This document shows, piece by piece, positions 2,435 to 24,175 of a stretch of 41,667 bases of DNA. Each line of letters starts with the position of its first letter. Within the stretch, counting starts at the first letter, position 1. A model generated the notes under the pieces. That model did no database searches, had not been told where the DNA came from, and worked only from the letters and a program-made list of their open reading frames with translations. The stretch comes from Spirosoma fluviale (GTDB lineage: Bacteria > Bacteroidota > Bacteroidia > Cytophagales > Spirosomataceae), in the NCBI GenBank assembly GCA_945906795.1, contig CAMDRO010000017.1:1-41667 (forward strand). The letters run 5' to 3'. A program made the position numbers and the translations under genes.

Positions 2435-4408
2435 ATGAAACTGAAATTAATCATTTTGCTTTTCGTGGGTTTTGTTGGATTTACTGGCACGGCCCAAAAA
2501 ATCACTCCAGCAAAATGGTCATGGACTTTGGAGCCATTAAATCCTACGTTGGGCCAGAGCGCAGAAATTATATTTAAAGTTAAAATTGATAAAGGTTGGT
2601 ACTTATATTCATCCGATTTTGATAAAGAATTAGGGCCTGTGGTCACGACCATTAAAATTAAAGAGGGCCTTGGTGTATCTCTTGACGGACCCTTGCGTGC
2701 GATAAATCCACATTCAAAATTTGACAAAGAGATTTGGAATGGTACCTATACCTATTTCACCGAGGAGGCGGAATTTCGCCAAACAGTGAAAATAAGTTCA
2801 GACTCTTGGAAGATTGACGGATCGTATGATGCTCAAACTTGTTCGAATGAAAGTGGTTTGTGTGTGCCCATCAAAGGTCCATTTTTGATAAGTTCTAAAA
2901 TAGGTGCATCCTCTACGCCTGAGGATTCAAAAAAAAAAATCTCTAGTACAGCCTTAAATTTAGTTGAACCTGTAGAGGATCAGTCCTTATGGCAATTTTT
3001 CTGGGTGGCGATGGGGGCTGGTTTGTTGGCCTTGCTCACTCCCTGTGTGTATCCCCTCATTCCCATGACGGTTAGTTTTTTCACCAAACAGCAAGGGGGT
3101 AAAAAATTGGCTTTTCTATATGGATTCTTCATTGTCTTAATCTATGTCTTTTTTGGGACCATTTTAGCTTTTTTTGCCGGGGCTAGTTTTGCTAATTTTT
3201 TAAGTACACATTGGGTTCCGAACCTGTTGTTTTTTGCTATTTTTATTCTTTTTGGCATTTCTTTTTTAGGGGCATTCGAAATTGTTTTACCTTCTAGTTT
3301 GGTCAATAAAGTTGATGCAAAATCGGATAAAGGCGGATTATTAGGGGTGTTCTTCATGGCATTTACGCTGGTTTTAGTCTCATTTTCTTGCACGGGACCT
3401 TTGGCAGGATCTATTTTGATTGCCTCATCCCAAGGAGTATTTCTGAAGCCAATCATTGGGATGTTAGGATTTTCATTGGCCTTTGCCATTCCATTTACGA
3501 TGTTTGCTATTTTTCCTGGGTTTATACAAAAAATGCCTAAGTCGGGCAATTGGATGAACGAAGTAAAAGTGGTGTTGGGCTTTTTAGAAATTGCCTTAGC
3601 ATTCAAGTTTTTAAGTGTGGCGGACCAAGTGTATCATTGGCATTTACTAGACCGTGAAATCTTTTTAGCCATTTGGATTGCCATTTTCACCGCTTTAACC
3701 TTGTATTTATTTGGTAAAATTTCTTTGCCACATGATGGACCCTCTGGAAAATTATCGGTTCCAAGAGCGCTTTTTGCCACGGCTTTTCTTGCCTTCGTGA
3801 TTTATTTAACCCCAGGAATGTTTGGTGCTCCATTAAAGGGTTTGTCTGGTTGGTTGCCTCCGATGTCAAGTCAGGATTTTAAGGGCTCGTCGGTAGAGGC
3901 CAATAATAATCCTAACAGCTTGGATTCCAAAACTCGAGTTACCTATAGTGAGTTCCTGAAATTGCCATTGGGTCTGAATGGATTTTTTGATTTTGAGGAG
4001 GCTAAGGCTTATGCCCAACAAGTAGGAAAGCCTCTTTTTATAGACTTTACGGGACATGGTTGCGTCAACTGCAGGAAAATGGAGGAATACGTATGGTCTG
4101 ATCCTGCGGTATTGGCCATTCTTAAGAATGACTATGTCATTGTCGCTTTATACTGTGATGATAAAACGGAGCTTCCTGAAAATAAGTGGTACGTCTCTAA
4201 AGTCGACGGTCAAGATAAAAAGACTTTGGGCGATCAAAATTTAGATTTTCAAATCTCTCGGTTCAATTCCAATGCTCAACCTCATTATGTGCTTTTAGAT
4301 CCAAGAAAGGACGGTGCTCCTATGGTTAAGCCGGTCGCTTTTGACGCTGATATTAACCATTTTATTTCGTTCCTTAAAAAAGGAATTGACGTCTATAAAT
4401 CAAAGTAA
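2435..4408 (+). CDS. dsbD: Thiol:disulfide interchange protein DsbD
   Basis: DsbD carries electrons from cytoplasmic thioredoxin through the inner membrane to periplasmic thiol partners, including those of cytochrome c maturation. All three modules are present in 657 residues. After a signal peptide (about 1-20) comes an N-terminal DsbD-alpha/DsbC-like domain with cysteines C136 and C143. The CcdA-like membrane core follows from about residue 185, with the paired cysteines in 'LTPCVYPL' (C204) and 'SCTGPLAG' (C319). The C-terminal thioredoxin domain has 'GHGCVNCRKM' (C543 and C546). Every redox cysteine is present, so it should be functional. The next gene begins two bases after its stop. Confidence 0.96.
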   Translation: MKLKLIILLFVGFVGFTGTAQKITPAKWSWTLEPLNPTLGQSAEIIFKVKIDKGWYLYSSDFDKELGPVVTTIKIKEGLGVSLDGPLRAINPHSKFDKEIWNGTYTYFTEEAEFRQTVKISSDSWKIDGSYDAQTCSNESGLCVPIKGPFLISSKIGASSTPEDSKKKISSTALNLVEPVEDQSLWQFFWVAMGAGLLALLTPCVYPLIPMTVSFFTKQQGGKKLAFLYGFFIVLIYVFFGTILAFFAGASFANFLSTHWVPNLLFFAIFILFGISFLGAFEIVLPSSLVNKVDAKSDKGGLLGVFFMAFTLVLVSFSCTGPLAGSILIASSQGVFLKPIIGMLGFSLAFAIPFTMFAIFPGFIQKMPKSGNWMNEVKVVLGFLEIALAFKFLSVADQVYHWHLLDREIFLAIWIAIFTALTLYLFGKISLPHDGPSGKLSVPRALFATAFLAFVIYLTPGMFGAPLKGLSGWLPPMSSQDFKGSSVEANNNPNSLDSKTRVTYSEFLKLPLGLNGFFDFEEAKAYAQQVGKPLFIDFTGHGCVNCRKMEEYVWSDPAVLAILKNDYVIVALYCDDKTELPENKWYVSKVDGQDKKTLGDQNLDFQISRFNSNAQPHYVLLDPRKDGAPMVKPVAFDADINHFISFLKKGIDVYKSK

Positions 4409-15523: not shown

Positions 15524-16816
15524 TTATTTTGTTACGGGTTTTCCTGAAATGATGACTTTAACGGTATCTATGCGGGCATCAGTGACTGTCATGATTTGAA
15601 ACTGAAAGGCTGTTAACGTAATGACTTCATTTACATCAGGGATATCTTCGTATAGATGGATTAACATACCGCCAAGCGTCTCGTAATCACCCTCAGGAAG
15701 ATTCCAGTTATATTTTTCATTTAAATAATCAATTTCGTGGCGTCCAGAAAGGATAAATGTATGGTCATCCAAACGTTTTTCAATCCAGTCTTCGGTATCA
15801 TCAAACTCATCTTGAATTTCTCCAAAAATTTGTTCCATGACATCCTCCATACTGACAAGACCGGAGGTACTCCCAAATTCATCGACCACGATAGCTAATG
15901 ATTTTCTTTCTTTTGAAAATTTTAACATTAAATCATTGGCAGACATGGCCTCGGGAACAATAGGAATGGAAGTAAGAATACTTTGAACATCTTTTGGTTT
16001 TTTAAATAAAGCCAACGAGTGACAATATCCAACCACTTCTTCTAAGGTTTCTTTATAAACTAAAACCTTTGAATGGCCACTTTCAATAAATACTTTTTTG
16101 AGGCCCTCGATACCTTCGTCAATTTCAATGGCCGTAATTTCAGTTCGTGGAATCATGCAATCTCGCACCTTGACTTGCTTAAACTCCAAGGCATTGTGAA
16201 AAATTTTAGTATCGACCTCATTTTCTTCCTCGGTGGATATCTTCCGATTTAAGTTTTGCAAATAATGGTTTAAGTCGGTTAATCCAAAGGCAGGTTTTTC
16301 TTCTGAATAGCTTAATCGTAATACCCGAGTGATAAACCACTTGGATAGTCCTACGGTCAGCCAGACTAAAGGAAACATCAGGGTATTAATGATCCAAATA
16401 GGAATGGCTAAAAATTCTAATATCGCATCTGGATTAATTAAAAAGATACTTTTAGGGGGGAATTCTGAGGTAGTTAGAATGATAATGGTGGCAATGATGG
16501 ACGCAAATAGTCTGGCCAAAATTTCACTCGTCAATAATGGAAAATTACTTAAAATGAGGGGATGCAAGAACTCCTCCATAAAAATGCCATAAGCCACTAA
16601 GGAAAGGGTGTTACCGATCAACATGGTTCCAATAAATTGGGATGGACTTTGATTGAAATTAGCAATGATCTTGGCACTTAGGATGTTTTGCTTTGCCTTA
16701 AGTTCAAAATAAAGTTTGTTGGACGAGACAAAAGCCATTTCCACCCCAGAAAAAAATGCTGAAAAAACCATGGCTATGATGATTCCCAGGTATTGAGGCG
16801 TGTGTATGTCGGCCAT
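15524..16816 (-). CDS. CNNM/CBS/CorC-domain membrane protein (hemolysin C family)
   Basis: The 430-residue protein (ATG at 16814-16816; a TTG nine bases earlier is possible) has an N-terminal CNNM/DUF21 membrane domain with 'FSAFFSGVEMAFVSS' and three further hydrophobic segments. A pair of CBS domains follows (about 205-325, 'CMIPRTEITAIEIDEG', 'VDEFGSTSGLVSMEDVMEQI'), then a CorC/HlyC domain at the C-terminus ('GDYETLGGMLIHL'). Members are linked to magnesium/cobalt efflux, and one paralogue, GldE, to gliding. The 'SGVEMAFVSS' start resembles the general paralogue more than GldE ('SGAEVALFS'). It is the last gene of the ccm transcript. Confidence 0.9.
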   Translation of the reverse strand: MADIHTPQYLGIIIAMVFSAFFSGVEMAFVSSNKLYFELKAKQNILSAKIIANFNQSPSQFIGTMLIGNTLSLVAYGIFMEEFLHPLILSNFPLLTSEILARLFASIIATIIILTTSEFPPKSIFLINPDAILEFLAIPIWIINTLMFPLVWLTVGLSKWFITRVLRLSYSEEKPAFGLTDLNHYLQNLNRKISTEEENEVDTKIFHNALEFKQVKVRDCMIPRTEITAIEIDEGIEGLKKVFIESGHSKVLVYKETLEEVVGYCHSLALFKKPKDVQSILTSIPIVPEAMSANDLMLKFSKERKSLAIVVDEFGSTSGLVSMEDVMEQIFGEIQDEFDDTEDWIEKRLDDHTFILSGRHEIDYLNEKYNWNLPEGDYETLGGMLIHLYEDIPDVNEVITLTAFQFQIMTVTDARIDTVKVIISGKPVTK

Positions 16817-16826
16817 AGAATCCAAT

Positions 16827-17054
16827 TTATTTCTTTTTTGGTTTTTGTGAGTCTTCTTTCTTCAATCGTTCATTTTTTGAATACTGATAGTAGAATAGGC
16901 AGGCGACACTATACATGAGCCAACCGTAATGGTAAAATATTTCAGACCAGAAATGACCTTGAATATCTTTGGGTACTTGAGAATTTAGATCGATGATCCA
17001 AATAATAAAAAATCCAATCCCGGCCGCTAAACTTAAAATTTCTTTTCTACCCAT
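16827..17054 (-). CDS. Small two-helix membrane protein at the end of the ccm genes
   Basis: The 75-residue product starts at an ATG one base after the ccmF stop; an in-frame TTG nine bases further upstream would overlap ccmF. It has two hydrophobic segments (about 5-23 and 39-57) and a lysine-rich tail ('ERLKKEDSQKPKKK'). It has no CxxC motif, so it is not a CcmH or CcmG substitute by any visible sign. Tight coupling to ccmF suggests a part in haem or cytochrome c handling, but I do not recognise the family. Confidence 0.72.
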   Translation of the reverse strand: MGRKEILSLAAGIGFFIIWIIDLNSQVPKDIQGHFWSEIFYHYGWLMYSVACLFYYQYSKNERLKKEDSQKPKKK

Positions 17055-17055
17055 A

Positions 17056-19605
17056 TTAGGCAATCATTTTTTCTGTCCTCCTAAATGTAGAGACAAATAA
17101 GCCAATAAAAATCAAAATAGATCCTACCCAAACTAAATTTATATAAGGCTTTTCTAATGCTTTAATGATAATTAAATCTTGTTGGGTTGTATTATAAGAA
17201 AAACTAAATTGTTGGGTTTGAGGGTTTATCGCGGTAAACTTAATTTTTATCCCCGTTTCCTCACTTTCAAATGCGGGCATAGCCACCATCCGATCTTTGA
17301 TGATGAAGGTAGGTGTTAGTTGGAACTGCTGAAAATTCTTTCCCAACACATTAAAATTAGCCCGAACGGCTGCATCATTTGGACCCAGCACGACATTTTC
17401 TACTTCGGTGACACGGGTGACATCCATCAAAATCGCCACAAAATCATTTAAGAATAGGGTATCTCCGATAGACACCGTCGCATCGACGGTTTGACTCCAT
17501 TGCTTTTCGGACCCGGCATCTGCGGCTAGGCGTGGATCTAAAGAAACATAGGTATAAATATCGTGATCCCATGCATGTTTGACATCTGGAGAAATGGCAG
17601 TTCCCATTTTGGGATTCATTTGCCAACGAGGAAACAGGGAGACGCTTTTCCCTTCTGCGTTTTTAAATTCCAATTCGTAATAATTATTTTCGGGTTCCAC
17701 GGTCAAGGTGTCTCCTTTTTTAGCGATGGATTTCCCTTCTTTTTCAATATTTTTCAAAGCAACTGCATGAAAATCACCTTCAATGATGTCAAAATCTTTG
17801 CGGTTAAAATACCCAGGCTTTCCTCTTAATTCTATTTTTCTACCCTTGTAGGTAACTAAATAATCCTGCATTTGCGCTCCTTGTCCTAGCCAAAGTGGTA
17901 AATTCTCCTTGTTTTCTTTATTGTCATCTTTCGTGAATTGCTCTACCTTATTAGAGATAGCAAAGCCAGATCGATTGAGCGAAACAACTTTGGAATAACC
18001 AGACGAAAACAAAACACCAATCAGCATAATCGCCAGACCTACATGGGAAAGCGCGCCTCCGGCAATGGAGAATTTTTGCTTGGTTAAAAACCACAATATT
18101 TGGCCATTCGCCATGAGTGAAAAAAGTCCGCTCCATAATAAAGCGATATATGGAATTTCATATACCTTTTCGAAATTAACGACTAAAACCGTTAGTAAAA
18201 CAGAAGTCAAAAGCGAAGAGTAGAGCGGCTTAAATGAAGTGGATTGTTTTAATTTCCCCCACCAAACATATTGGCCAATCCCACTTAAAAGTGCCACGGC
18301 CATAAATATCCAAATTTGAATTTTGCTGTAATGGGCAACTTGATCAGCAGGTAAAGCCATATTTGAAACCATACCAAAGGCTTCCGCAATTTTATTGTAT
18401 ACAGGAATGGACGTCGTAAAAATGAGTTGGAATGCCGACAAAGTCAACACAGAAGCTCCGACAAAAATCCAAAACTCCTTGTTGTAAATACCAATCTCCT
18501 TTTCATCCTTGGGTAAACTTTTCCAACGATAGGCCGCTAAAATAATGGCGCCTATTAAAAACGTAAACATGTAAATCAGGAGTTGGCCCGAAAGGCCTAA
18601 ATCTGTAAAAGAGTGAACGGACGCATTTCCTAGCACCCCAGACCGATTTAAAAAAGTAGAATAAAGTACCAAAATAAAGGTCGAAATGACTAAAATAATG
18701 GAAGTTTTCAGGGCTGCACTTGAATTCCGATGGGCAATCATGGTGTGAATGGCGCCAATTAAAACGAGCCAAGGAACGAAAGAGGCATTTTCCACCGGAT
18801 CCCAATTCCAATATCCTCCAAAATTTAAAGTCTCATAAGCCCAATAGGCACCCATGGTGATTCCAATTCCTAAAATGGCTGCTGAAAATGCAGCCCAAGG
18901 TAGAGCGGGTTTTATCCATTCGGTCAACTTATTTTTCCATAAACCTGCTATCAAATAAGCAAAAGGAACGAGTGTCAGTGCAAATCCTAAAAAGAGGGTA
19001 GGAGGATGTATCACCATCCAATAATTCTGCAATAATGGATTTAGGCCACGGCCATCTTTTGGAATGAAATTAGGCTGTAAACTCCAGACGGGTAAGTCGG
19101 GCTGCGCCTCTCTCAGCAAAAGAAAGGGGGACGATCCGATTTTTAAATCGATCCATGGAATAATGACACCTAAAATCATGGAGGTTAAAAAGGTTTGCAC
19201 TAAGGCAAAAACGGTCATCACGGGCGATTCCCATTTGGGATTTTTGATCATTAAAATCACCCCTAAAACGGCTTGCCAGAATATCCAAAGTAAAAACGAG
19301 CCTTCTTGGCCTTCCCAATAGCATGAAATCATGAACATGGTGGGCAGTGCTAAAGAGGAATGAGTGAACGCGTAGTGGTATTCAAAATAGTGATTGTGAA
19401 TAATGACAAAAAGGCTTGTAGCCACGCCAATCACTAACAGTAAATGAATAATAAATAAGGTTCTAGCCGTTTTTTTCCAATCATTTTTGGCAAGTTCATC
19501 GGATGCTTGAGTCGCCTTAAAATAAGAAAATGTGGCTAATGCGGCCGTTACAAATGACGCAATGACCATTAAATGACCCGTAGTGCCAATATTTTCGTGT
19601 ATCAT
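17056..19605 (-). CDS. ccmF: Cytochrome c maturation haem lyase subunit CcmF
   Basis: CcmF is the multi-spanning protein of the haem-apocytochrome ligation step on the periplasmic face. The 849-residue protein has 'YWEGQEGSFLLW' (about 96-107), conserved histidines ('HPPTLFLGF', 200-208) and the tryptophan-rich WWD haem-handling motif 'GGYWNWDPVENASFVPWL' (about 263-280). The long C-terminal periplasmic part (about 560-815) precedes a last helix at the very end. It begins two bases after the ccmE stop. It is longer than E. coli CcmF (647 aa), mainly through this C-terminal region. Confidence 0.94.
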   Translation of the reverse strand: MIHENIGTTGHLMVIASFVTAALATFSYFKATQASDELAKNDWKKTARTLFIIHLLLVIGVATSLFVIIHNHYFEYHYAFTHSSLALPTMFMISCYWEGQEGSFLLWIFWQAVLGVILMIKNPKWESPVMTVFALVQTFLTSMILGVIIPWIDLKIGSSPFLLLREAQPDLPVWSLQPNFIPKDGRGLNPLLQNYWMVIHPPTLFLGFALTLVPFAYLIAGLWKNKLTEWIKPALPWAAFSAAILGIGITMGAYWAYETLNFGGYWNWDPVENASFVPWLVLIGAIHTMIAHRNSSAALKTSIILVISTFILVLYSTFLNRSGVLGNASVHSFTDLGLSGQLLIYMFTFLIGAIILAAYRWKSLPKDEKEIGIYNKEFWIFVGASVLTLSAFQLIFTTSIPVYNKIAEAFGMVSNMALPADQVAHYSKIQIWIFMAVALLSGIGQYVWWGKLKQSTSFKPLYSSLLTSVLLTVLVVNFEKVYEIPYIALLWSGLFSLMANGQILWFLTKQKFSIAGGALSHVGLAIMLIGVLFSSGYSKVVSLNRSGFAISNKVEQFTKDDNKENKENLPLWLGQGAQMQDYLVTYKGRKIELRGKPGYFNRKDFDIIEGDFHAVALKNIEKEGKSIAKKGDTLTVEPENNYYELEFKNAEGKSVSLFPRWQMNPKMGTAISPDVKHAWDHDIYTYVSLDPRLAADAGSEKQWSQTVDATVSIGDTLFLNDFVAILMDVTRVTEVENVVLGPNDAAVRANFNVLGKNFQQFQLTPTFIIKDRMVAMPAFESEETGIKIKFTAINPQTQQFSFSYNTTQQDLIIIKALEKPYINLVWVGSILIFIGLFVSTFRRTEKMIA

Positions 19606-19607
19606 AT

Positions 19608-20051
19608 TTATTTTTTCGCTTCTAATGAAGCACTTGAATCTACAGAAATTTTACCCTCTTGATATTTGGATGGGCATTTTAAAAGAATTTTGTCGCAGTA
19701 AAAGATCTTGTCTGCTTTCATGCTTCCGACTAAAACAATTTTTTCGGATTTTTCAAAATCCTGAGGTTTTGGGGCGGCATAAATGACTTGGTTTTCCCGG
19801 CCTAGGCTATCTGACACCGTAAACTCTAGTCGGTTTGCATCCAAGGCAGGATTAAATACCATCCCTATAATCTTTCCTTGAGCGTCTTTTTTAAGTTTTC
19901 CTACCACGTGGACTTTTTGGGATGGGTCAGATTTCGAAATTTTTTCGGCTTCATCAAAGCCGACATAGGTACTCGCATCGCTCGTCGTAATTAAAATAAT
20001 ACCGATGGCAATGGCCACTAAAATCAAACCGATGATATGTGTTTTTTTCAT
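19608..20051 (-). CDS. ccmE: Cytochrome c maturation haem chaperone CcmE, variant CxxxY type
   Basis: CcmE carries haem covalently between CcmC and CcmF. The 147-residue protein has an N-terminal membrane anchor (about 5-22) and the OB-fold periplasmic domain ('VHVVGKLKKDAQGKII' ... 'KIVLVGSMKADKIFYCD'). Where E. coli has the haem-binding His-x-x-x-Tyr (H130...Y134), this protein reads 'LLKCPSKYQ', giving Cys126-x-x-x-Tyr130; the codon at 19674-19676 is TGC. Such CxxxY CcmE proteins are known from archaea and some bacteria that lack CcmH. There is one extra cysteine (C119). The gene abuts ccmD and ccmF with one- to two-base gaps. Confidence 0.92.
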   Translation of the reverse strand: MKKTHIIGLILVAIAIGIILITTSDASTYVGFDEAEKISKSDPSQKVHVVGKLKKDAQGKIIGMVFNPALDANRLEFTVSDSLGRENQVIYAAPKPQDFEKSEKIVLVGSMKADKIFYCDKILLKCPSKYQEGKISVDSSASLEAKK

Positions 20052-20052
20052 A

Positions 20053-20271
20053 TTAAACTTTCTTAGAAATCTCTTTTTCTAGTTGGGTAATTTTTTTGCC
20101 CAAATTGAAAAGATAGATAAATAGACCTACGAGTATCAACAAAACAACCGAAATAACCACGTAGATTTTTCCATCTGCACGGAATTGATCCGCCATTTCT
20201 ATGTCGGCTTGTTGGGCTATTCCACTAAAACTGCTAACTAAAAGAATCAATAAAGTGTTTAAAAATTTCAT
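20053..20271 (-). CDS. ccmD: CcmD-like small membrane protein
   Basis: The 72-residue protein has a signal-peptide-like N-terminus (cleavage likely near 'GIAQQ', about residue 19), a single membrane helix (about 35-55) and a basic, probably coiled tail ('LGKKITQLEKEISKKV'). CcmD links CcmC to holo-CcmE and helps its release. Position between ccmC and ccmE supports the call, as sequence conservation in this family is weak. The stop and the ccmE start are one base apart. Confidence 0.8.
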   Translation of the reverse strand: MKFLNTLLILLVSSFSGIAQQADIEMADQFRADGKIYVVISVVLLILVGLFIYLFNLGKKITQLEKEISKKV

Positions 20272-20273
20272 GT

Positions 20274-20948
20274 CTATTCGTTTTCTGATATTAAATATGC
20301 TAGTTTTTTAATTCGAATTCTAAGGTTTGTGATCCAATAGCCTAACATGGTCCAAGCTATAATTGCCGGGTAAAAGACCAACCGCATGTTGGAATCTAAA
20401 TCATATTTTGAAAATCCTGGATTTCCTCCATTTCCGGGATGCAGTGAATCGGTCATGCGCGGCAAAATCCATATCAAAATCATGAAAATAACAAAGGCAA
20501 AAATATTATAAACATTTGAGATTCTTGCTTTTTGCTGTTCATCGGGCATGGATGAACGAACTAAACCGTAGGCTAGATAAATCAATAGACCTATCGCAAC
20601 TGAATTTAATTTGGGATCGTTGGTCCACCAATCTCCCCAAGTGAATTTAGCCCAAAGACTACCTGTGACTAAACCTAAGGTGGCAAAAACCAAACCCGTT
20701 TCCACATAGGCATTGGAGATGATATCACTTTTAATATCCGATTTTCGAAGGTATTGAATCGAGTGGTACACAGATGTACCCAATAAAAAAATCATGGTAA
20801 ACCACATGGTTACGTGAAAATATAAATTTCTCACGGTTTCATTCAAAATCGCTTGTCGGGGCACCTTTCCCATAAAACCCGCCCAAATCGTGTAGGCCAA
20901 CAGTAGCATACAAGCTATTTTCCAATAATTCTTTTTTAATGTCTCCAT
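20274..20948 (-). CDS. ccmC: Cytochrome c maturation haem-handling protein CcmC
   Basis: CcmC loads haem onto CcmE. The 224-residue protein has six predicted helices and the WWD-type motif 'WGDWWTNDPKLNSV' (104-117), plus histidines flanking it (H45 in 'YFHVTMWF' and 'SLHPGNGG' in the later periplasmic loop) that suit axial haem ligation. Its ATG overlaps the ccmB end by 13 bases, and ccmD begins two bases after its stop. Confidence 0.94.
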   Translation of the reverse strand: METLKKNYWKIACMLLLAYTIWAGFMGKVPRQAILNETVRNLYFHVTMWFTMIFLLGTSVYHSIQYLRKSDIKSDIISNAYVETGLVFATLGLVTGSLWAKFTWGDWWTNDPKLNSVAIGLLIYLAYGLVRSSMPDEQQKARISNVYNIFAFVIFMILIWILPRMTDSLHPGNGGNPGFSKYDLDSNMRLVFYPAIIAWTMLGYWITNLRIRIKKLAYLISENE

Positions 20949-21604
20949 ATGTAGGGAAATAAAATTCCTGATAATACCATAACAATTACATCTAAAGAGG
21001 CTAAAGTAGCCATTTCATCCCAATTCTCCTGAATGGATATCCCATCCATCGCACTTTTTGAGAGTTTAAGTAAGAGCAATAAGAGCGGAATAATGATGGG
21101 AAAACTTAGGACCGACATCAATGTGGCCGAATTTTCGCCTTGAGCAGCTATTCCTGCGACCATCGTGAGTGTAGCTGAAAAACCAATCGACCCCAATAGC
21201 AAAGAGAGTAGATATAAAGGTAAATTCCCCACCGGATTGCCCATGACCCATGAATAAAATAATATACCCACAAACGAAATGCCGATCATCACAAGGGCAT
21301 TGTACACAATTTTTGAGTAAATGACCGCTTCTGGGCTAACGATCGAATAATAAAATATATTTCGCTGTTTTGATTCTTGCGTGAAACTTTTGCCGATGGC
21401 GTTGACGGCGATAAATAAGATAATTAGCCAAAACAAGGTATTCCAAGTAATGGGATTGATGGCTTGTTGCTTGGCCTTAAAAGATAAATAACAAACGAAT
21501 ATAGTCGAGGCTAAATACAAGAGTAATCCATGAATCGCGTATTTCTGACGCCATTCCATTTGGATTTCTTTTTTAACCAACATGCGTATTTCGTTTATTA
21601 GCAT
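20936..21604 (-). CDS. ccmB: Haem exporter membrane subunit CcmB
   Basis: CcmB is the permease of the CcmAB ABC complex that releases holo-CcmE from CcmC. The 222-residue protein starts with 'LVKKEIQMEWRQKYAIHG', typical of Bacteroidota CcmB, followed by six hydrophobic segments. An in-frame ATG at 21581-21583 is an alternative start seven codons in. It is the first gene of the operon; the ATPase subunit ccmA is not adjacent, and the upstream neighbour is the divergent feoA. Confidence 0.92.
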   Translation of the reverse strand: MLINEIRMLVKKEIQMEWRQKYAIHGLLLYLASTIFVCYLSFKAKQQAINPITWNTLFWLIILFIAVNAIGKSFTQESKQRNIFYYSIVSPEAVIYSKIVYNALVMIGISFVGILFYSWVMGNPVGNLPLYLLSLLLGSIGFSATLTMVAGIAAQGENSATLMSVLSFPIIIPLLLLLLKLSKSAMDGISIQENWDEMATLASLDVIVMVLSGILFPYIWRH

Positions 21605-21822: not shown

Positions 21823-22047
21823 ATGCGTACAGTAGCAGATTTGGGTATTGGTGAACATGGGTTTATTTCAGGCTTTACGGATGAAAAACTTTCATTAAAA
21901 TTATTAGAAATGGGTTGCTTGCCAGGTACGGAAGTTATTTTAACGCATCATGCCCCATTCGGCGACCCTATTGCCATAAAAGTTTCAGGTTACACTTTAT
22001 CGATGCGAAGAGAAGAGGCGGCCACCATCCTAATTAATAACATATAA
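21823..22047 (+). CDS. feoA: Ferrous iron transport protein FeoA
   Basis: FeoA is a small SH3-like cytoplasmic partner of the FeoB iron channel. The 74-residue protein shows the family pattern 'ADLGIGEHGFISGF', 'KLLEMGCLPGTEV' and 'GDPIAIKVSGYTLSMRREEA'. The length is normal. The next gene, feoB, begins one base after its stop, giving the usual FeoA-FeoB operon. No metal-responsive riboswitch or Fur-type box was evident in the upstream gap. Confidence 0.95.
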   Translation: MRTVADLGIGEHGFISGFTDEKLSLKLLEMGCLPGTEVILTHHAPFGDPIAIKVSGYTLSMRREEAATILINNI

Positions 22048-22048
22048 A

Positions 22049-24175
22049 TTGGCTAAAATTCCTAAAATAGCACTGATTGGAAACCCGAATGCGGGGAAGT
22101 CGTCTTTGTTCAATACATTGACTGGCCTTCGTCAAAAAACCGGAAATTTCCCTGGTGTGACCATGGATAAATTGACTGGAATATGGCAATTAGGTCCCAA
22201 AAATGAAATCGAGGTTTTAGATTTACCGGGTATATATAGTATTTATCCAAAGTCCATCGACGAGGAATTAGTGATTAATATTTTGGGAAATCCGGCACAT
22301 CCTGATTATCCTGATATGGTCATTGTCGTGGCAGATGCATCTAACTTAAAGCGAAATTTATTGCTTTTTTCTCAAGTTCGTGACTTGGGAATTCCTACTG
22401 TTTTGGCTCTCAATATGATTGATGTAGCGGAAAATGAAGGATATGTGATCAACTCGATCAAGTTAGCTCGGGAACTCAGTGTTGAGGTGGCGGAGGTAAA
22501 TGCTAAAAAAGGGATTGGGGTTAATGGATTAAAATTAGCGGTTCAAAAAACCTTAAAAAATCGATTTGCATCCAATGATGGCTTGCCACTTCCGGTATCG
22601 GATGAGCTGATCGACGAAATTCAGGCGGCTTTTGGAGAGGTGGATCCTTACCGCAGTTTGCTTTGGCTGATGGAACATGATCGAATGAAAATGTTTACGA
22701 AAGATCAGTGTGCTGATTTGGATCGAATCATGGTCAAACATGATTTTGAACCTAAAAAATACAAATCGGCCGAAACTGTGAAACGCTATGAGTTTTTAAC
22801 GGAGGTGGTCGACCGTTGTGTGATTAATTTAAATAGGCAATGGGATGCCGTACCTGTGAAAACGTGGACTGACCGATTAGATAAATTATTTCTACATCCT
22901 GTAGGCGGATATTTGTTTTTTTTGGCGATTTTATTTGTCATGTTTCAAGCCGTTTTTACTTGGGCCACGTATCCCATGGATGCCATCGACGCGGGGGTAG
23001 CTTTTTTAAATGATTGGTTGAAAGGCATACTTCCCGAATCAACCTTCAGAGGATTATTAACCGATGGATTAATTGCAGGAATTGGAGGGGTGTTGATCTT
23101 TATTCCACAAATTGCTTTTTTGTTTTTCTTTATTTCTATGTTGGAGGAAACGGGATATATGTCACGCGTGATGTTCATTATGGATAAATTGATGCGCCGA
23201 TTTGGATTAAATGGGAAGTCGGTCGTACCCCTGCTCTCCAGTGTGGCCTGTGCGGTGCCTGCCATTATGAGTACTCGGTCGATCGGCTCAAGAAAAGATC
23301 GGTTGATTACTATTTTGGTGACGCCTTTGATGTCTTGTTCGGCCCGATTACCTATTTATACGGTGTTAATTGCCTTAGTGGTTCCTGAAAAAAATACCTT
23401 ATTTGGGTTGTTTAACCTGCAAGGCTTCGTATTATTCATCTTGTATATGTTGGGCTTTTTCATGGCTTTATTTTCCGCCTACATCATGAAATTGATTCTA
23501 AAAGCAAAGGAAAAGAGTTACTTCATCATGGAATTACCCACCTATAAAGCACCGAGATTTAAGCATGTGAGCTACACTATTTTGAATAATGTGAAGGTTT
23601 TTGTTTTTGAAGCGGGTAAAGTCATTGTTGCTATTTCGATTATATTATGGGTATTAGCCAGCTATGGACCAGGAAACAGCATGAAAGATGCTTCGGATCG
23701 AATTAAAATTCAAAACCCAAATTTATCAGGTGTTGAACTTAGTAATAAAATTGCCGGGGAAAAATTAGAAAATTCCTACGCGGGTCATTTTGGTAAGTTT
23801 ATCGAACCGGCTATCAGGCCTTTGGGCTATGATTGGAAAATAGGCATTGCGTTGATCACTTCATTTGCGGCCCGTGAGGTATTTGTAGGCACCATGTCGA
23901 CCATTTATAGCTTAGGGGGTGAGATTGACAATGAAAATGCGACGATCAAAAATAGAATGCGTGCCGAGATAAATCCCCAAACAGGAAAACCGATGTATGA
24001 TCTGGCTCTAGGGTTCTCACTGCTAATTTTCTATGCCTTTGCTATGCAATGCATGAGCACGTTGGCAACGACCTACCGTGAAACCAAATCATGGAAATAC
24101 CCTCTAATTCAATTTGGTTACATGACCGCATTAGCTTACATATCTGCTTTTTTGGTCTACCAAGCGCTCTCTTAA
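22049..24175 (+). CDS. feoB: Ferrous iron transporter FeoB (TTG start)
   Basis: FeoB takes up Fe(II) across the inner membrane. The 708-residue protein has the N-terminal GTPase domain with G1 'GNPNAGKSS' (11-19), G2 'PGVTMD', G3 'DLPGIYS' and G4 'NMID'. The membrane part carries the two Gate motifs around 'PLLSSVACAVPAIMSTR' and 'TPLMSCSARLPIYTVLI'. The start must be TTG at 22049, because the first in-frame ATG lies inside the GTPase domain and would remove G1. The 3' end overlaps the convergent thioesterase gene by four bases. Confidence 0.95.
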   Translation: MAKIPKIALIGNPNAGKSSLFNTLTGLRQKTGNFPGVTMDKLTGIWQLGPKNEIEVLDLPGIYSIYPKSIDEELVINILGNPAHPDYPDMVIVVADASNLKRNLLLFSQVRDLGIPTVLALNMIDVAENEGYVINSIKLARELSVEVAEVNAKKGIGVNGLKLAVQKTLKNRFASNDGLPLPVSDELIDEIQAAFGEVDPYRSLLWLMEHDRMKMFTKDQCADLDRIMVKHDFEPKKYKSAETVKRYEFLTEVVDRCVINLNRQWDAVPVKTWTDRLDKLFLHPVGGYLFFLAILFVMFQAVFTWATYPMDAIDAGVAFLNDWLKGILPESTFRGLLTDGLIAGIGGVLIFIPQIAFLFFFISMLEETGYMSRVMFIMDKLMRRFGLNGKSVVPLLSSVACAVPAIMSTRSIGSRKDRLITILVTPLMSCSARLPIYTVLIALVVPEKNTLFGLFNLQGFVLFILYMLGFFMALFSAYIMKLILKAKEKSYFIMELPTYKAPRFKHVSYTILNNVKVFVFEAGKVIVAISIILWVLASYGPGNSMKDASDRIKIQNPNLSGVELSNKIAGEKLENSYAGHFGKFIEPAIRPLGYDWKIGIALITSFAAREVFVGTMSTIYSLGGEIDNENATIKNRMRAEINPQTGKPMYDLALGFSLLIFYAFAMQCMSTLATTYRETKSWKYPLIQFGYMTALAYISAFLVYQALS

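Follow-up and report, generated by a model that had tools for sequence, protein, structure and literature searches.

The classical haem chaperone CcmE carries the motif HxxxY. A ccmE gene that encodes cysteine in place of the haem-binding histidine therefore raises the question of whether it specifies a working protein, a remnant or an error, and whether it is peculiar to one genome or normal for its lineage. We addressed this question for Spirosoma fluviale (assembly GCA_945906795.1), using the 41,667-nucleotide stretch of contig CAMDRO010000017.1, hereafter the window, together with the draft genome, its relatives and the literature on cysteine-type systems.

A cysteine at the haem position of CcmE

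The ccmE reading frame (Table 1) is free of internal stop codons. Its product matches the Pfam CcmE family at 47.2 bits (cut-off 24.6) over residues 56-132, and a hydrophobic stretch at the N-terminus is probably a membrane anchor. The curated NCBIfam models for CcmE score far below their cut-offs, the best reaching 27.3 versus 126 bits. When solved structures were searched by sequence (E ≤ 1), the sole match was CcmE 1j6q, which at E = 0.21 is not significant by itself and which aligned over the same region.

The protein has two cysteines, at positions 119 and 126, the second of which opens the sequence CPSKY (residues 126-130). Pairwise alignment with CcmE of E. coli K-12 (from NC_000913) pairs Cys126 with His130 and Tyr130 with Tyr134, and the window protein departs from the classical HxxxY haem motif in having CxxxY at that position. 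A preliminary description of this locus had reported Cys126-x-x-x-Tyr130 with a TGC codon for the cysteine, and translation of the reading frame together with residue numbering bears this out. Its wording that tyrosine follows three residues later needs correction, as the tyrosine lies four residues after the cysteine, with three between. The presence of a cysteine-type CcmE in the window is confirmed. Across the alignment of distinct sequences from the order and phylum, each of these five residues (Cys, Pro, Ser, Lys, Tyr) shows 98-99% conservation, and CPSKY is therefore no chance motif.

Table 1. Positions of ccmE, its motif and neighbouring genes in the window
Feature	Coordinates	Strand	Description
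ccmE	19608..20051	minus	147 aa, Cys126-PSK-Tyr130; ORF translation, Pfam CcmE, E. coli alignment
CPSKY codons	19662..19676	minus	Cys126 = TGC 19674-19676; Tyr130 = 19662-19664
ccmB	20936..21604	minus	222 aa, first of run; Pfam CcmB 44.9 bits (cut-off 24.9)
ccmC	20274..20948	minus	224 aa; Pfam Cytochrom_C_asm; aligned by BLASTP with E. coli CcmC (25%, 139 columns)
ccmD	20053..20271	minus	72 aa, alternative family CcmD_alt; Pfam PF20077 78.5 bits; NCBIfam TIGR04391 25.4 bits (cut-off 24)
ccmF	17056..19605	minus	849 aa; Pfam; aligned by BLASTP with E. coli CcmF (28% identity, 578 columns)
DsbD-like gene	2435..4408	plus	657 aa; DsbD_TM 84.5 bits
FeoA-like gene	21823..22047	plus	named by sequence reading
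FeoB-like gene	22049..24175	plus	named by sequence reading
78-aa ORF	16827..17063	minus	unmatched in Pfam and NCBIfam (E ≤ 0.001)
GldE-like gene	15524..16825	minus	TIGR03520 188.8 bits (below cut-off 376)

The ccm gene run and its neighbours

Reading frames and Pfam matches in the window directly place ccmE as the fourth of five genes in a minus-strand run, ccmB-C-D-E-F. This run had been described as an intact operon; the five genes do lie in one run, but ccmA is missing from it. Alignment places His60 and His184 of E. coli CcmC opposite His45 and His170 of the window protein, and His173, 261, 303 and 491 of E. coli CcmF opposite His200, 287, 331 and 521. We take these histidines to be functional residues in both E. 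coli proteins.

The window also encodes the only DsbD_TM match of the genome, and this DsbD-like protein may be a source of reductant for apocytochrome thiols. A divergent FeoA-like and FeoB-like gene pair adjoins ccmB; among 18 loci from relatives, four (L092, L094, L096, L097) have a FeoB homologue close to ccmB. Directly after ccmF is a 78-aa reading frame, with a homologue at the same place in two of the 18 loci (L092, L097). The GldE-like gene stands after the ccm run, and has homologues at the same place in four (L092, L094, L095, L097).

Proposed haem handling by CcmE

The founding papers of the cysteine variant of cytochrome c maturation are reportedly Allen 2006 and Goddard 2010. In PMC3601427, the variant is named System I* and has a CcmE with cysteine for histidine; CPSKY occurs in 25 of the 36 bacterial genomes examined there, and tyrosine, rarely phenylalanine, stands at the fourth position after the cysteine. 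About one third of bacteria with a cysteine-type CcmE possess CcmH according to section 8 of the same paper, so lack of CcmH does not define the variant. This qualifies the earlier suggestion that the window belongs to a known CXXXY variant of System I from which CcmH is absent: the variant is indeed in print, and CcmH finds no match here, but its absence is not the distinguishing trait. The accessible part of PMC12285233 likewise gives the conserved residue as histidine or cysteine.

We consider it highly probable that the window CcmE serves as the haem chaperone in cytochrome c maturation by System I*, with haem loaded on Cys126 and handed to CcmF without CcmH. The covalent attachment, the successive transfers and the redox partners are inferred from homologues that have been studied, as follows. 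CcmC, CcmB and CcmD, perhaps with an unlinked CcmA-like ATPase, would load haem on Cys126 of the membrane-anchored CcmE; the link would probably be a thioether to a haem vinyl group, with Tyr130 near the iron. CcmE would then pass the haem to CcmF, which would join it to CXXCH apocytochromes without CcmH, while DsbD and TlpA-like thioredoxins probably hold the apocytochrome thiols reduced. In section 8 of PMC3601427, a Desulfovibrio operon placed in E. coli produced holocytochrome c without CcmH and CcmG.

Alternatively, Cys126 might act as an iron ligand alone, making CcmE a non-covalent haem chaperone. Such binding, through the cysteine of the same kind of motif, is described for D. vulgaris CcmE in the accessible text of PMC3884852. 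We regard this as unlikely for the window protein, given that a Desulfovibrio cysteine-type CcmE expressed in E. coli bound haem covalently (PMC3601427, section 8) and that the C120A change in M. acetivorans abolished the haem-stained CcmE band and left holo-cytochrome c undetectable (PMC9084895, available portions).

Cytochrome c maturation genes elsewhere in the genome

The genome is a draft of 2,626,047 bases in 100 contigs and is 94.67% complete. It contains a single CcmE match, and a second, histidine-type CcmE was accordingly rejected. No match to CcmH (PF03918) was found in the draft at E ≤ 0.001, a search in which E. coli and three other control genomes were positive; at this completeness and contig number, the absence of CcmH from this single genome is not certain. 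The preliminary description had reckoned with a second HxxxY CcmE or an intact CcmH as evidence against its reading, and the draft yielded neither.

It had also pointed to haem c proteins and CcmG as informative. Cytochrome_CBB3 gave 21 matches in the genome at E ≤ 0.001, 14 of them above the cut-off, and CXXCH lies near the match in 12 of the 12 loci fetched. The outcome for CcmG (TIGR00385) was less clear-cut, with five weak matches and none above the cut-off; one of these five thioredoxin-like proteins could act as CcmG. With one CcmE, no CcmH match and many CXXCH cytochromes, the window gene very probably supplies the functional CcmE of the genome.

These data also bear on the idea that the window CcmE is decaying or non-functional and that the cytochromes are made another way. 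Its weak scores against the curated NCBIfam models would suit such a view, yet we judge it very improbable: the operon is intact, CXXCH proteins are many, and CxxxY is kept in all 189 readable sequences considered below. The Cytochrom_C_asm family, moreover, has two matches in the genome, CcmF and CcmC, both of this operon, and no further member. A separate CcsA was rejected on the same count.

Distribution among relatives

The best named relatives of the window CcmE are Cytophagaceae metagenome-assembled genomes (MAGs) and Aquirufa rosea (best 80 of 579), so the original assignment of this DNA to a Bacteroidota-like genome was right. In its best segment, the A. rosea CcmE shows 87% identity. 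CPSKY is present in 80 of 80 named loci (profile search; best 80 of 579), a scan that used L[LM]KCPSKY as one of its two patterns and is therefore biased towards cysteine and no evidence for exclusivity. One contig with a CPSKY CcmE (L354) is titled as a 'Bifidobacterium breve' MAG and is probably a mislabelled bin.

Pfam surveys, which apply no selection for cysteine, found CcmE in 172 of 194 genomes of the window's order and in 264 of 392 of the phylum. The sequences read were among the matches listed, mostly the better-scoring ones, and leave out family f43 (47 positive genomes by our count). They were aligned in 208 rows, including one for the window and one for E. coli, and merging those identical over residues 80-130 left 191. 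One of these is E. coli (HDENY) and another (L155, from G082) stops short of the motif. The 189 distinct readable sequences, the window's included, come from 191 of the 421 genomes with a match (58 of 172 in the order and 133 of 249 in the rest of the phylum), and comprise 187 with CPSKY, two with CPSRY and none with HxxxY. Two CcmE matches each were seen in four genomes of the order (G100, G130, G172, G180) and two of the phylum (G254, G476); the lower-scoring copy, read in G100, G130 and G172 (L149, L150, L151), has CPSKY too.

Judged by these sequences, the cysteine-type CcmE appears general in the order and in the part of the phylum read, rather than peculiar to this genome, and CPSKY is probably the normal form among relatives. 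Cysteine-based haem transfer in this lineage, as originally proposed, is thereby supported in kind. That a histidine codon was turned into cysteine by a sequencing or assembly error, conceivable in a draft of 100 contigs, is already refuted by the relatives, where the motif is whole as CPSKY or, in two cases, CPSRY.

CcmH is scarce. PF03918 scored above the cut-off in 0 of 194 genomes of the order, with three weak matches that on sequence reading look like histidine-kinase ATPase domains, and a hidden CcmH in the order was rejected. Across the phylum it was above the cut-off in 5 of 392 genomes and matched at E ≤ 0.001 in 12 of 392. The five positive genomes (L132-L136), four of family f36 and one of f34, might carry it as part of a nitrite reductase maturation set.

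The search for ccmA

CcmA (TIGR01189) gave 36 matches in the genome, none above the cut-off. The candidate is a 205-aa protein on contig C4 (about 72987-73547), unlinked to the ccm run. It shares 31-34% identity with CcmA-like proteins of relatives (E 4e-28 to 4e-32) and scores 95-105 bits against four of them, versus 90-100 for the best other of the 12 ABC loci compared. Against E. coli CcmA it reaches 26.9 bits (E = 7e-4), the lowest of the 12. Its top-ranked NCBIfam model is one for ABC-F (99.9 bits), and the CcmA model takes fifth place with 72.9 bits (cut-off 131.6). The C4 protein may thus be considered a weak candidate for CcmA.

Among relatives, BLASTP against CcmA-like proteins placed a CcmA-like gene beside ccmB in 5 of 30 ccm loci, four of family f34 and one of f54 (L110 of f34 and L109 of f54 among them). 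The remaining 25 had no CcmA-like gene within the stretch examined, ccmB itself being unrecognised by BLASTP in some; in the window's own order the count was 0 of 11. Fifteen stretches surrounding CcmA-like genes in other members of the phylum (12 of f43 and single ones from f41, f27 and f29; contig ends cut two of the 15 short) yielded neither ccmE nor any further ccm gene. Together these data suggest, as a modest inference, that ccmA apart from the ccm run is common, above all in the window's order.

Significance of the cysteine-type CcmE in Bacteroidota

The window ccmE is a plain member of the System I* variant already in print and, as the variant is described and CPSKY is the probable normal form among relatives, the gene is ordinary. 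What is mildly new is the generality of cysteine-type CcmE in Bacteroidota. Section 8 of PMC3601427 names delta-Proteobacteria, Chloroflexi and Firmicutes for the variant and leaves Bacteroidota unnamed. A literature search lying mostly outside subscription journals found, among the matches listed, no description of a cysteine-type CcmE in Bacteroidetes or Bacteroidota, and found no biochemistry of any Bacteroidota CcmE.

We lean slightly towards the broader view that Bacteroidota with Ccm have the cysteine-type CcmE exclusively, almost always without CcmH and often with ccmA split from the operon. If this pattern is true, few groups would hold more of System I* than Bacteroidota, and CcmF would be their sole cytochrome c synthase. 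Cultured members of the phylum would then be well suited to studying the way in which a stable bond between haem and cysteine is cleaved for haem transfer, and what, if anything, stands in for CcmH.

Comparison with known systems

The window most resembles the System I* of Desulfovibrio and other bacteria, sharing the cysteine in place of the haem histidine, the CPSKY motif, a ccm run with ccmD and a genome in which CcmH finds no match. It differs in that ccmA is missing from the run, and its phylum is not one of the three named in section 8 of PMC3601427. The CcmABCEF system of M. acetivorans, as far as the accessible text of PMC9084895 describes it, is alike in its CXXXY CcmE (C120), in working without CcmH and in having ccm genes spread beyond one operon; that system has no CcmD and a split CcmF, whereas the window encodes CcmD_alt and a single-chain CcmF of 849 aa. 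With the classical System I of E. coli, ccmABCDEFGH, the window shares CcmC and CcmF homologous by BLASTP, CcmB and CcmE recognised by Pfam, and aligned histidines in CcmF and CcmC. It departs from that system in carrying Cys126 for His130, in lacking a match to CcmH, and in having neither a CcmG above the cut-off nor a linked ccmA.
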